A stretch of DNA of 40,822 bases from Bacteroidota bacterium (lineage in GTDB: Bacteria; Bacteroidota; Ignavibacteria; UBA10030; UBA8401), in NCBI GenBank assembly GCA_019455105.1, contig JACFMZ010000009.1:1-40822 (forward strand), given 5' to 3'. Positions 162-28,437 of this stretch are shown here, one piece after another; the first letter of the stretch is position 1; every line of letters begins with the position of its first letter. Below the pieces are notes generated by a model. That model worked only from the letters and a program-made list of their open reading frames with translations. It had not been told where the DNA came from and searched no databases. The translations under genes were made by a program, and so were the position numbers.

Positions 162-1121
162 ATGGCAGAATCAAAGTTGATTGACAATGTTCGCGAATGT
201 ATGCGGCTGAAACATCTCAGCATTCGAACCGAAGAAGCCTACATTTATTGGATACGCGAGTACATCCTCTTTCACCAAAAACGCCACCCGCAATCCCTCA
301 CCGAGCAGGATATCCGTGCATTCCTTTCGTACCTTGCCCGTGTGAAAAATGTATCTTCTTCTACTCAAAATCAAGCACTAAATGCATTAATTTTTTTGTA
401 TGAAAGTGTTTTAAAAATTCCGCTGGCAAAGATTGAAGATGTAGAACGCGCGCATCGCACCAAACGGCTTCCCGTAGTATTTTCTCCCAATGAAGTCCAA
501 AAGATCCTTTCACACTTGCAGGGAACGAACAAGCTCATCGTCTCTCTTCTCTACGGCGCCGGACTCCGTTTATTGGAAGCGCTCCGTCTTCGCATTCACG
601 ATCTCGATTTCGATCAAAAGATAATTACGGTGCGCCGGGGAAAAGGGGACAAAGACAGAGTAACAACACTTCCGGAAACATTGATTGAGCCGTTACAATT
701 GCAGATTCAAAAAGTTATGCTTCAGCATAAAGAAGATTGTGCGAACGGATACGGCGAAGTGTATCTGCCCGATGCGTACGCCGCAAAGAATCCTTCCGCC
801 GCCACACAGCTCGGATGGCAGTATCTTTTTCCATCGTCGAAACTTTCCAAAGATCCGCGCACGGGAAAAATAATGCGTCATCATCTGCACGATACCTACA
901 TTCAGCGCATTGTGAATGAAACAATTCAGAAAGTGGGAATCACAAAAAAAGGATCGTGTCATTCATTCCGTCATTCCTTTGCAACGCACTTGCTTGAAAA
1001 TCATTACGATATCCGCACCGTGCAGGAACTTCTCGGACATTCCGATGTTCGCACCACCATGATCTACACGCACGTACTCAACAACGGCGGCATTTCCGTA
1101 AAATCTCCGTTGGATAGGTAA
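162..1121 (+). CDS. intI: Integron integrase (IntI-family tyrosine recombinase)
   Basis: A 319-aa site-specific recombinase that would join attC cassettes at an attI site. It has an N-terminal SAM-like core-binding domain (about residues 5-95) and a C-terminal catalytic domain. Catalytic residues are visible: R136 in GAGLR, H267-x-x-R270, H293 in LLGH and nucleophile Y302 in IYTH. The family-defining insertion absent from XerC/D is present at about residues 201-250 (LPDAYAAKNP ... WQYLFPS ... DPRTGK ... RHHLHDTYIQR), and the C-terminus HVLNNGG..SVKSPLD is typical of IntI. The start has an AAAGG Shine-Dalgarno 7 nt upstream. The gene looks intact, at the usual length (about 320 aa). Most integrons have attI upstream of a divergent intI, so an array would be expected left of position 1; no attC-like pair is visible downstream. 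Identification as IntI is firm; whether an active array exists cannot be seen. Confidence 0.93.
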   Translation: MAESKLIDNVRECMRLKHLSIRTEEAYIYWIREYILFHQKRHPQSLTEQDIRAFLSYLARVKNVSSSTQNQALNALIFLYESVLKIPLAKIEDVERAHRTKRLPVVFSPNEVQKILSHLQGTNKLIVSLLYGAGLRLLEALRLRIHDLDFDQKIITVRRGKGDKDRVTTLPETLIEPLQLQIQKVMLQHKEDCANGYGEVYLPDAYAAKNPSAATQLGWQYLFPSSKLSKDPRTGKIMRHHLHDTYIQRIVNETIQKVGITKKGSCHSFRHSFATHLLENHYDIRTVQELLGHSDVRTTMIYTHVLNNGGISVKSPLDR

Positions 1122-22962: not shown

Positions 22963-23883
22963 TTAGGATTGCGGATTAAGAATATTTTCTAATGCCGATG
23001 TAATTTCCGGAAAGGAAAAAGAAAATCCTGCGTGCAATAACTTTTCCGGAACGGCATGCTGGCTTGAAACAATTGCCTCGGCGGCTTCGCCGAATAAAAT
23101 TTTTAATGCCGCTTTCGGTACAGGCAGCCGAGAAGGTCGGTGAAGAATTTTTCCGAAGATTTTGGAAAATTCTTTCATCGTAACGGCATTGGGGGCGGTA
23201 AGATTATACACTCCCGAGAAGTTTTTATTTTCTATCGGAAATATTATTCCGCGTACCACATCGGCCATATGAATCCATGAAAGAATTTGTTCTCCGCTTC
23301 CAATCGGTCCGCCGGCACACAATTTAAAAGGTAGAAGCATGCGTTCAATAATTCCGCCGGATTTCTCCAGCACCAGTCCGATGCGGGGAGTTGCAACCCG
23401 AACGCCGGCTTGTTCGGCATTGAAGGCTTCTTTTTCCCAAGCAGCAACGAGATTTGCTAAAAAATCATTTCCTGTCGAAGATTGTTCGTTCAACAATTCA
23501 CTGCCTCGATTGCCGTACACGCCGACCGCCGAGGCGGAAATAAGCAGCTCCGGTTTATGCCGCGCCGATTGAACAGCTTCAACAAGTTTTTTGGTTGCGA
23601 GGATTCTGCTGTTCCAAATTTCTTTTTTTATTTTTTTATTCCAGCGGTGTTCAAAAAGATTTTTCCCGGCAAGATTAATAACAACCGACGCTCCCTCAAT
23701 CTCATTTTGCCATTCTCCTTCTTCGCCGGCGTTCCATTGAACATACCGCACAACTGCCTGCTGAAGTTTTTTCTTCGGGTGGATTGATCGCGAGAAAAGC
23801 ACAAGCTCATGAGCTTCTCTCGATATCAGATTACATAATGCTGTTCCGATAAATCCCGTTCCGCCGGTAATAATTATTTTCAT
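22963..23883 (-). CDS. TIGR01777-family NAD(P)-dependent epimerase
   Basis: A 306-aa extended-SDR protein (YfcH-like). The Rossmann motif ITGGTGFIGTAL is at the N-terminus; VVINLAGKNLFEHRWNKKIKKEIWNSRI and LISASAVGVYGNRG are typical of the family. The C-terminal DUF1731-like part (SRLPVPKAALKILFGEAAEAIVSSQHAVPEKLLHAGFSF) completes it. The substrate of the family is not known. Its ATG overlaps the stop of the upstream hybrid kinase by 4 bp, so it is translated as part of that transcript, an unusual pairing. Confidence 0.92.
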   Translation of the reverse strand: MKIIITGGTGFIGTALCNLISREAHELVLFSRSIHPKKKLQQAVVRYVQWNAGEEGEWQNEIEGASVVINLAGKNLFEHRWNKKIKKEIWNSRILATKKLVEAVQSARHKPELLISASAVGVYGNRGSELLNEQSSTGNDFLANLVAAWEKEAFNAEQAGVRVATPRIGLVLEKSGGIIERMLLPFKLCAGGPIGSGEQILSWIHMADVVRGIIFPIENKNFSGVYNLTAPNAVTMKEFSKIFGKILHRPSRLPVPKAALKILFGEAAEAIVSSQHAVPEKLLHAGFSFSFPEITSALENILNPQS

Positions 23884-26800
23884 GACGAGCCTTCATTCAG
23901 AATTGTCCGGAGCAGTTCCAAAATATCCTCTAATTTATACGGTTTGGTAATTACCTCGCGCACGCCTAAATCATATAATTTTTTTCGCGCCTGCATTTCC
24001 AAATATCCTGATGAGATAATAACATTAACGTTTGGATCAATGCTGATGAGATTTCTAAACAATTCATAGCCGTTCATAATCGGCATATCAAGATCGGAAA
24101 TGATAATGTGAATATCTTCGGAACGAGCCTGAAATATTTTTAAAGCTTCGTATCCATCCGAAGCGGAAAAAACATTGTAGCCGACCTCTTCTAAACTTTC
24201 TTTTAAAATTTCTCGAATCATTTCCTCATCATCAACAATAAGAATTGATTCGAAATGTTTTTCCGTTGAACCGGAAGGGATTTTCCCAGGAACTTCCGGC
24301 TCTACTTGCACCAGTGGAAAATAGAGATAAAAAGTCGTCCCTTCATTCGGCTGACTTTTTACATCCACCAATCCTTTATGTAATTTTACCACTCCGTGAA
24401 CGATTGATAGACCGAGCCCTGTTCCTTTTCCCCGCTCTTTTGTGGAAAAGAACGGCTCGAAAATTCTGCGCCGAACCGCATCCGGCATGCCGATTCCGGT
24501 ATCGCTGATGCTGATTCGAACATAGTCTATCTCTTCGGCGTGCGGAATAAATTTTCGTATCTCCGTTCCTTTTTTTCTCTTTGCACCGATAAACAGCGTT
24601 CCGGTATTCTGCATGGCGTCTCGGGCGTTAATGGCAAGATTCAAAAAGACTTGATGAAGCTGTCCGTCATCTCCCATAATGGTTAAATGATCTTCATGGA
24701 TTTGATAATCCACAACGATAGATTTGGGAAGGAAGTGTGAAAAGAATTCGCAAATATCTTTTACGAAACTGTTGATGACAATCGGTTTTAGCTCCGCCTG
24801 CTCGGGGCGGGCAAAGAGAAGCAGTTGTTTTGAAATTGATGCGCCCCGCTGCGATGCTTCGATAATTTTCTGCACATAGGTTGAAATTTTTCCTTCCGCC
24901 GGAATTTGTTTTTTAATTAATTCCGCCGTGCCGAGAACCATTGAGAGCAGATTATTAAAATCGTGTGCAATGCCGCCGGCAAGCGTCCCGATTCCTTCCA
25001 GCTTCTGCGATTGAATTAACTGCTCTTCAAGTAATTTTTTCTCCGTAATATCTCGCTGCGTTCCCCACACACCGGTCCACATTCCATCTTCCATTATTCC
25101 AATGCCGTTGTTGAGAAAATATTTCGGCTCGCCGGCTTTATCCTGCTCGCGGGATTCGTAATCGAAAATACGATAGCCGTTGGAAATAAATTTTCTCATA
25201 AAGTCTAAATTGCCTTGGTCGTCTTCCAGCAGTAAAGAGCTCACGCGCGTACCGATGACTTCTTGTATTGTTTCAACGCCGTACATTTTTGCAAAAACAA
25301 CGTTGCACTCGGCGATATACGAATATTTATACATCAGGCGAATTTGTTCGTCTATTTCCAGCGTTGTCGGAATCGGCTGATCGAACGCCGTGCGGTAAAT
25401 TCCTTCTGAACTCTGTTCCACGAACGCTCGGTAGCGTTCTTCTTTTTCCCGCAGCTCCTGTTCGGCTTTTTTCCGCTCGGTGATATCGCGGAAAATTCCC
25501 TGTACCACAATTCTGTTCTCATCTAAACGAATAGCGCTGGCATTTATTTCTACGGGAACAACAACGCCGTCCGAACGAAGAATCTCAAATTCCACCGCGC
25601 TTTTTTCCAGCACCAATAACGATTCTTGAAAAATATTCGACGCTTCTTCCGCAAGTTCCGGCGGATGAAGTTCGGTTTGATGCATACCGATAATTTCTTC
25701 CCGAGTGCGCCGCAGAAGCAGTTCCGCTTCTCTGTTCGCATCAATAATTTTTCCGGTTTTCGGATCAGAAATAAAGACGGCATCTTTTGCATCTTCAAAT
25801 AATGTGCGGAAGCGAACTTCGGATTCCTGCAGCGCTTCTTCCGAAATTTTTCTATCCGTGATATCGCGGAGCGTAACAATAACGCCGATAATCTTTCCCT
25901 CAAAATTTCTATGCGGCGCGTAGGTTGAACTCAGCCATTTTGAACGGATAGTACCGGGAACAAAGTGAGAGACATCTTCTGAGGTAACGACCTCGCCCGA
26001 AAGCGCGCGCGCAATCAATTTGTCCACTCCTTCGGCAAGTAAATGCGGAAACATTTCAAAAACATTTTTCCCAAGCAGCGAATCCTGCATAATTCCCGTC
26101 AGCCGCTCCATATAATTATTCCACAATTTATACCGGTACTCGCGGTCATACACAATAATTCCTTCGCCGGCATTGGAAATTATTTCGTTGGTAAACTGCA
26201 CCGCTTCACGCAGCTGCAAATCATTTTCTCTCTGTTTGGAAATATCCCTGACAATAATCTGCGCGGCAGGCTCCCCGTTATACACAAACGATATCGACGA
26301 TAATTCAACATCTATTTCTTTGCCGTCTAATCGAATCCATTTTTGTTCAAAATTTATCGCACTGCTTCCGCCGTACACTTTTTCAATACGCCGCTTCGAT
26401 TCTTTTTTATAGGCGGGGTGTAAAAATTCAAAAATATTTTTTCCGATAACCTCCTCTTTTGCCGACGCGCCGATCAGCCGCATGCCGGCTTCGTTGACAA
26501 ATTTTACAATGCCGTTTTGATGAACGGCAATCGCCATTGGAGAAAATTCCACCAGCGAGCGGTAGCGTTCTTCACTCTCGCGCAGATAAATTTCCGCCTG
26601 CTCGCGCACCTGAATTTCTTGCTGCAGTAATTCATTCTGATTTTTTATTTCTTTAAACAACCGATTGTTGGCAATAACCATCGCCATGTGGTTGGCAATA
26701 ATCTGAAGATGCTCAAGATCGGCTCCAGAAAATTCCCGCAGAACGCTTTTGGTGTACACCGCCAGCGTGCCGATGGTGCTGCTGCCGATAAGAAGAGGAG

Positions 26801-27941
26801 CGCCGGCGCACGAAACAAACATCCCTTTTGTTTTATCTTCAACATACAGCCCTGACGGATAAAGCACATCTTGAATCTCTGTAATATCATTTATTGCCAG
26901 TGCGCGCTTACTATTGAGTATTCTGCCGGTAATTCCGTGGATTGAAGGAAGATCGGCGGTGACTTCATAGTCCGGCAATCCGGCTACGGAAATTAGTTTT
27001 GCGCTGCTGTTTTCCAGAATTCGGACAATAACCACATCAATCGCAAACGCCGTTTGTATCAGTTCAGAAATTGTGTGCATTTGCCGCTGAATCGATTGCG
27101 AGCCGACCACTTCACCGGTCACCCGCGCAATAAGATTCAGCCGAACAACCGCGCGCTCCAGCGCTTCAGCGGTGTTCACTTGATCCGTAACATCCCGCAG
27201 GGTAATAACACTGCCGATGTTTTTCTTCTTCTCGTCATATATCGGCGCGGAAAATATTTCGATAAACAATTCCTTCTCTTCTCTTGAATGAAGAATTACG
27301 CGCGCAGGACGATTTATATTTTCCGCGCGGCGGGATGGATTCAACTCCTCCAATGAAAATCGATTTCCTGTTTTTTTATCAACAAGGCGGAAAATTTCAT
27401 CTGCCGGTTTCCCGACGGATTCTTCTTCCTTCCAGCCGCATAAGTGTTCGGCGCGATTATTCATAAAAAGAATTCTGCCGTTTTCATCAATTGCAGCAAC
27501 CGCATCGCCGACGGCATTAAGTGTAGCAGCGAGTCTCTGTTTGCTGCGCTGCATTTCCTGTTCAGCTTGAACTTGCTGCATCACCGAATCCAGCGCAAAA
27601 AGAATTTCCTTCCCGCGAAACGGTTTTGTAATAAATCCGTGCGGTCGAAGACTTTTTGCATGTTCAATTTTTTCTTTCTCGGTGCCGTCAACAAGAAAAA
27701 GAAAAGGAATGTCGTATTCTTGTTTTATTTTTTTTGCCGTTTCAATGCTTTCTTGAAAATTCAAATCAATAAGTACAAGATCCGGAAAGTGTTCGGCAAT
27801 ATAGTTAATGGTTTTTTTTTCGTCCGGCGTTTCGCCGATGATGTGATAGTCAGAAATATCAAGAACGGCGTGCAATTCTTGGAATGAGGAGGTACTGCAT
27901 TCTACAAGAAGAACTGTTTTTTTATTTTTGGGGGCTGTCAT
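23880..27941 (-). CDS. Soluble hybrid histidine kinase (REC-PAS-GAF-multiPAS-kinase-REC)
   Basis: A 1353-aa cytosolic kinase with receivers at both ends. N-terminal REC (about 8-130) with phosphoacceptor D59 in [11 protein letters not shown] (about 140-255); GAF (about 285-430); then four PAS units (about 455-960), several closed by the RDI(T/S)E/K..  PAC pattern; HisKA with H993 in [11 protein letters not shown]; HATPase_c with DTGIGMPD and GTGLGLS; C-terminal REC with D1283 in [12 protein letters not shown]. No membrane helices, so it should sense cytosolic ligands or redox through PAS/GAF. Length, kinase type and position of the last Asp closely match the 1352-aa kinase on the other strand, suggesting paralogy. 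The downstream epimerase overlaps by 4 bp. Confidence 0.92.
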
Positions 27942-28204
27942 GAAATATTTTGAGTTTACGGCAAATTCATTGCTGCGAAATTCCGGTTAACTGTATTTTC
28001 CCGAACTGCGGTGAGAGAAGAAGCCGCCGGCGAAAGAGCGAATCTTTGAACAGACATATCGACAAAGCGCACTGCTGTAATAAACAATTTCTTTAACGGA
28101 ATAAGGAACTAAAAGTTTAAATATTTTTTTCTCCCCGGTAATAACAAGGTAGAGAAGCGGGTTTTAATATTCAAATACAATTTCATAATTACGGTTAACA
28201 CTAA
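27942..28204. other. Leader region of the soluble hybrid kinase
   Basis: About 260 bp between the RNA unit's terminator and the kinase ATG. It must hold the kinase promoter, but I see no clear box, and the short open frames in it lack ribosome-binding sites. Nothing else is recognisable. Confidence 0.4.
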
Positions 28205-28241
28205 ATAAAAAAGCGCATTCTGCAGATTGCAAAATGCGCTT
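28205..28241 (-). terminator. Rho-independent terminator of the candidate RNA
   Basis: AAGCGCATT (28211-28219) pairs with AATGCGCTT (28233-28241); on the minus strand the stem is followed by TTTTTATTTAG. It also closes any read-through from the metal-efflux operon and isolates the RNA unit from the kinase gene. Confidence 0.82.
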
Positions 28242-28337
28242 GTCAATTCTCACCTCACGACTTCATAGCTGCACCCCCCAAGTGTGCAGCACACGAGTGT
28301 AGATGTGAGGTGAAGAATACTTCCTCCCGTACACTCG
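28205..28337 (-). ncRNA. Candidate structured RNA with a pseudoknot and intrinsic terminator
   Basis: On the minus strand three perfect helices can be drawn: P1 pairs 28330-28337 with 28294-28301 (CGAGTGTA / TACACTCG); P2 pairs 28305-28313 with 28250-28258 (TCACCTCAC / GTGAGGTGA), extended by four more pairs around one bulged base (28315-28318 with 28246-28249); P3 is a hairpin, 28284-28290 with 28268-28274 (GCTGCAC / GTGCAGC). P1 and P2 cross, giving an H-type pseudoknot with P3 in its third loop, or alternatively two competing folds. A terminator follows at 28205-28241. The 5' end is uncertain. I do not recognise the RNA class. A 41-codon frame without a Shine-Dalgarno (28255-28380) is the alternative reading. 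Confidence 0.55.
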
Positions 28338-28381
28338 CATGAAATATACTATGAATTCTTAAAAGAGAAAGAGCGTTCATA

Positions 28382-28437
28382 ATTAGAAATTTCTAATACT
28401 GCGCTTTTTAATAAAATTTGCATTAGAAATTTCTAAT
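28382..28437. promoter_or_regulatory. Two identical 16-bp palindromic operators
   Basis: The perfect palindrome ATTAGAAATTTCTAAT occurs at 28382-28397 and 28422-28437, centres exactly 40 bp apart, close to four helical turns. The right copy overlaps the -10 box of the minus-strand promoter, as repressor sites often do. No regulator for this sequence is known to me. Confidence 0.75.

Follow-up and report, generated by a model that had tools for sequence, protein, structure and literature searches.

A candidate pseudoknotted small RNA that shares the promoter layout of a MerR/B12-type regulator in a member of the Ignavibacteria

Positions 28205-28337, on the minus strand of the window (the whole 40,822-nucleotide stretch of DNA that was analysed), raise the question of whether a set of crossing helices belongs to an RNA and, if so, whether this RNA is a riboswitch, the end of a messenger or a gene of its own. 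A sequence-only reading had described three perfect helices of 8, 9 (13 with a bulge) and 7 bp, an H-type pseudoknot with a hairpin in its third loop, and an intrinsic terminator less than 10 nt past the last pair. All three helices were located on the minus strand, and the crossing of P1 and P2, with P3 inside the third loop, could be drawn as claimed. The stem of the terminator starts at 28241, 8 nt beyond the 9-bp P2. The features of the element are the following.

28330-28337, minus strand: 5' arm of P1, CGAGTGTA, partner of TACACTCG
28319-28329, minus strand: loop 1, CGGGAGGAAGT, exposed in the predicted pseudoknot
28305-28318, minus strand: 5' arm of P2, including a 4-bp extension and a one-base bulge at 28314
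28313-28305 with 28258-28250, minus strand: 9-bp core of P2, TCACCTCAC with GTGAGGTGA
28294-28301, minus strand: 3' arm of P1, TACACTCG
28268-28290, minus strand: P3 hairpin of 7 bp with the loop ACTTGGGGG, in loop 3
28246-28258, minus strand: 3' arm of P2 including the extension; holds the Shine-Dalgarno-like GAGGTGA
28203-28241, minus strand: intrinsic terminator, 14-bp stem and T-run (TTTTTTATTT)

ATTC (28318-28315) pairs with GAAT (28249-28246) across the bulge at 28314 and brings P2 to 13 pairs, and P3 consists of GCTGCAC (28290-28284) with GTGCAGC (28274-28268). Loop 1 is 11-15 nt long, loop 2 is 3 nt, and loop 3 has 12 nt besides the P3 hairpin. These lengths look adequate, and in the model the pseudoknot is structurally plausible. 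Counted in Watson-Crick pairs only, the crossing helices and the loop-3 hairpin together comprise 24 pairs. Neither 24 such pairs in the same arrangement nor a crossing-pair sum of 17 was reached in any of 3000 dinucleotide shuffles. When 105-nt segments were taken every 20 bases on both strands of 415 kb of the same genome, the element ranked first of 41,300 for pseudoknot pairs, and the next four had 21-23, the two highest of them 23 and 22. A wider segment folded with a z-score of -7.7, to which the terminator and two palindromes described below contribute part. The computed minimum for the first 97 nt was a nested fold of P2 and P3 without P1, at -36.1 kcal/mol. By a rough estimate the energy of the pseudoknot is about the same as that of the nested fold, and this was counted against the pseudoknot reading. 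In computed folding of growing transcripts P1 was dominant until the 3' arm of P2 emerged, so a path from P1 to the pseudoknot is plausible. The pseudoknot may form in the cell. Loop 1 with the Shine-Dalgarno-like CGGGAGGAAGU, the P3 loop ACUUGGGGG, and UAUGAAGUC would be exposed. Shine-Dalgarno motifs are used by this genome, in 65 of 256 starts compared to 6 in a control interval.

Between the element and the CDF gene upstream of it lie two perfect 16-bp palindromes, 40 bp apart from proximal to distal, and a promoter-like sequence.

28422-28437, no strand assigned: distal operator-like palindrome ATTAGAAATTTCTAAT, centre at about -93, exact ATTAGA-N4-TCTAAT
28382-28397, no strand assigned: proximal operator-like palindrome ATTAGAAATTTCTAAT, centre at about -53, same motif
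28366-28371, minus strand: CTTTCT at the -35 position of the fixed layout, a poor match
28343-28348, minus strand: -10 box TATATT, in the layout common to the regulator promoters
28205-28337, minus strand: putative small RNA, about 132 nt, deduced from the promoter layout together with the pseudoknot and the terminator

The spacing of this promoter (site 28397-28382, N10, CTTTCT, N17, TATATT 28348-28343) is exactly that of a regulator gene on C54, and its proximal palindrome and -10 box are as far apart as those of the regulator promoter. Across the regulator promoters the layout reads proximal site, N10, -35 box (often TTGCNN), N17, TANNTT. Perfect matches to the whole layout were found exactly twice in the 3.03-Mb genome, at the regulator promoter and at the RNA promoter. 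With up to one mismatch, 37 matches were found in the family compared to 12 in the control (summed). The layout agrees with the general promoter type of the genome, TTGA-N17-TA, and a Bacteroides-type promoter box was not enriched in this genome. By this layout transcription would start at about 28338-28335, on the opening bases of P1. With such a start the RNA would stand alone, with a length of about 132 nt, and the start of a 41-codon reading frame would fall outside the transcript. This meeting of the predicted start with P1 is the strongest argument for a real RNA gene at 28205-28337. The element appears to have two features of a stand-alone small RNA, a promoter of its own, for which the evidence is in the sequence, and a Rho-independent terminator of its own. 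The sequence AACGCTC, between the proximal site and the -35 position of the RNA promoter, is related to G..AAACCGCTCA, which is conserved after the -10 box in 5' leaders of the regulator genes (C54 ~945-960; L163, L164, L165, L167, L171; L050-region).

The exact motif ATTAGA-N4-TCTAAT occurs five times in the 3.03 Mb, where 0.1-0.6 occurrences are expected. Two of the sites are at the RNA, two are upstream of the C54 regulator gene, with an additional one-mismatch site beside them, and one, on C25, is apparently intragenic. In 22 genomes of the family 29 exact sites were found compared to 0 for a reversed-pattern control. The regulator gene (G000:C54:981-1901) encodes a MerR/BldC-like helix-turn-helix and a B12-binding-like domain. 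Its product scored 30.7 bits with the NCBIfam CarH model, for which the cut-off is 400, and 54.1 with BldC, below the cut-off of 77. The cobalamin motif ExHxxG is present in the regulator of this species and absent from the aligned relatives. With up to one mismatch, the palindrome was also found upstream of the regulator genes of at least seven relatives, in G008, G002 (two genes), G021, G010, G020, G016 and G012. This association of motif and gene suggests that the motif is the binding site of the regulator itself. Upstream of the orthologous regulators of three genera (L166, L168-L170, L172) the motif was absent, which was counted against the model. Clusters of ATTAGA-N4-TCTAAT lie upstream of the orthologues' own genes at L164, L165, L167, L173-L175, L185 and L188. 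A metal-responsive operator, suggested by the efflux genes nearby, was given up once the motif turned up at the MerR/B12-type regulator instead. The same palindrome also occurs as pairs spaced by just 20 bp before response-regulator/NtrC-like genes (L192, L204, L205, L200). Such pairs, found in G013, G006 and G010, perhaps belong to a different regulator.

Behind the C54 regulator gene, on its strand, comes a series of large genes of surface type (DUF11, a weak beta-barrel match, fn3 and G8 domains), and the same promoter layout is found before a family of short membrane/pilin-like proteins in G002, G016, G018 and G019. Since the layout precedes surface-type and membrane/pilin-like genes, the regulon seems to concern the cell surface. 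The RNA, with a promoter built like that of the regulator, is the other clear member of the regulon in this genome and may help to tune the cell surface. Several copies of a short membrane/pilin-like protein (MGSSKVIMLSGVYLI...) in genus g3 are preceded by the layout as well (L199, L201, L203, L237, L239, L242, L248).

The sequence-only reading had recognized no known RNA class, and comparison with Rfam 15 agreed, as no family reached the gathering threshold over the element. The sole match at threshold in the whole window was a tRNA. Sub-threshold matches were due to chance (miRNA-like, on the palindromes) or covered the terminator only, and the RydC model of Rfam gave no match to the element even at E-values up to 10. 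Homologues of the element were absent by BLASTN from 60 relatives, 98 genomes of the order and 391 of the class, and from plasmids and phages; a search of viral contigs with one exact 21-mer of it gave nothing above chance level. A covariance model built from the single sequence found no homologue in 120 genomes, and only chance-level matches in the surroundings of CDF orthologues and operator sites. The best match, 28 bases at 93% in G286, was rejected as it looks like a piece of a protein-coding gene. A back-to-back site in G021, considered as a similar RNA, was AT-rich, weakly folded and without a model match. A mobile element or repeat was rejected as well, the element being single-copy in the genome. 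The element thus appears, as found so far, to be confined to one bacterial species, and the absence of homologues was counted against a small RNA gene. At the contig start the window carries an integron integrase (162-1121, plus strand; 450 bits with NCBIfam integrase_gron, cut-off 265), and an attC array, if any, would fall beyond the contig end. A cluster of short GTGTG/CACAC palindromic repeats (CACACTAGTGTGCAACACACCAAGTGTGC...) was seen at L051 ~1480-1540 in G357.

The best explanation, to which we give about an even chance, is a stand-alone, species-specific and regulator-controlled gene for a pseudoknotted small RNA, RydC-like in design. In the proposed mechanism the C54 MerR/BldC-type regulator with its B12-binding-like domain would bind the palindromes near -53 and -93. 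Because a poor -35 box follows closely on the proximal site, activation is suggested, and the regulator probably activates this promoter. Transcription would run from the first bases of P1 to the terminator, over about 132 nt. P1 would fold first during transcription, and the 3' arm of P2 would then pair into the P1 loop, resulting in a pseudoknot that is compact and has its ends paired. The RNA would most likely act in trans, as a regulatory small RNA in the circuit of the regulator, the other member of which would be the regulator with its surface-protein genes. It could do so by base pairing, through the loops left exposed, or by attaching to a protein. The least certain parts of the model are trans action and the target. 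When 293 gene starts were scanned for duplexes, no target emerged, and the regulator ranked 291 and the DUF11 gene 81 of the 293.

An alternative explanation, which we regard as rather unlikely, is that the element is the structured 3' end of a metal-efflux operon (TolC-like, RND adaptor, CzcA-like RND and CDF genes), where it would stabilize the end of the mRNA or be cut out of it as a small RNA. It comes immediately after the CDF gene and has the same orientation, and no other convincing terminator was found from the CDF stop to 28241. However, a complete promoter of the regulator layout stands between the CDF gene and the element, and nothing similar was found by synteny behind the CDF orthologues of relatives. 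The closest relatives of the CDF protein are from Ignavibacteria MAGs. A role as the 3'UTR of the efflux mRNA is possible, and it is compatible with an internal promoter.

Regulation in cis was also considered. preQ1-II and other pseudoknotted riboswitches are built as an H-type pseudoknot with a hairpin in the third loop. This topology, taken as a lead only, is the likeness to the element; the helices of the element are much longer, it has no Rfam match, and no gene is within reach before the terminator. As a riboswitch or attenuator the element would be the leader of the next gene downstream, a hybrid histidine kinase (23880-27941), with P1 and P2 as alternative folds that decide termination. 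The kinase gene is on the same strand, and crossing helices followed by a terminator do precede it. Against this, the 14-bp stem of the terminator faces no strong antiterminator in the helix list of the element, the kinase start codon lies about 264 nt past the terminator, and a promoter-like TTGAAT-N17-TACCTT from 28174 stands between the two. Nor was there a second copy, as expected of a conserved aptamer before related genes, in relatives, class, order, plasmids or phages. A leader of the kinase gene is thus improbable, and the analysis gave no support to a riboswitch. The first proposal, a structured RNA not described before that ends at a terminator of its own, was supported and gained a predicted promoter, while the likeness to small-molecule riboswitches found no support.

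An RNA gene repressed by the palindromes was given an equally low probability. It would start at about 28425, inside the distal palindrome, from a second promoter-like sequence upstream, TTGACA-N19-TATATT, the presence of which was counted against the best explanation. TTGACA is a good -35 box, and proteins of the LitR/CarH type are commonly repressors (PMC9758184). The spacer is 19, however, where the genome prefers 17, and the layout common to the sister promoters indicates the other -10 box. We see little chance of a structure without function; it would fit a single species, the lack of conservation and the segments with nearly as many pairs elsewhere in the genome, but not a promoter layout, a pseudoknot and a terminator in register within 200 bases. 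A small protein gene is hardly credible, for although GAGGTGA is well spaced before TTG 28246 in a genome that uses such motifs, and would be held in P2, the 45-codon frame that it would serve (28246-28109) crosses the terminator, the 41-codon frame (28380-28255) starts about 43 bases upstream of the predicted RNA start and would not be intact on the transcript, and neither a Pfam match nor a homologue was found.

RydC of E. coli and Salmonella, which acts on membrane and biofilm genes and owes its stability to a pseudoknot (PMC4337610), is the closest design to the preferred reading, a stand-alone small RNA gene. The element, known from sequence alone, resembles RydC in the stand-alone design, the pseudoknot and the 3' intrinsic terminator with a U-tail. 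RydC has a free 5' seed and requires Hfq (PMC4337610), whereas the 5' end of the element is inside P1; the element also has longer helices and a third hairpin in loop 3. The presumed controlling protein resembles LitR, CarH and MlrA in its MerR-like helix-turn-helix and B12-binding-like domain, but ATTAGA-N4-TCTAAT differs from the class II LitR site, TGTACA-N12-TGTACA (PMC9758184, PMC3509220). MlrA controls the curli regulator CsgD and thereby the cell surface (PMC3509220). By analogy with MlrA/csgD (PMC3509220) and RydC (PMC4337610), a trans-acting regulator is the most likely role of the RNA.

Regulatory pseudoknotted small RNAs are a known kind, and the mechanism is not new. Unusual here is that one RNA, from a single species, unites a strong pseudoknot with a promoter common to one regulator only. 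A literature search found no paper on small RNAs in Ignavibacteria. Tentatively, the RNA may represent a class unrelated to any known, forming a two-promoter regulon with the MerR/B12 regulator and its surface-protein genes, that is, a transcription factor-small RNA loop for the cell surface in Ignavibacteria. The sites seen across many relatives also define which motif an uncharacterized MerR/BldC-B12-domain regulator of surface proteins is likely to bind, and the likely layout of its promoters. If the model is true, one lineage gave rise to a structured small RNA of complex fold, which joined an existing regulon by carrying the promoter layout of that regulon.
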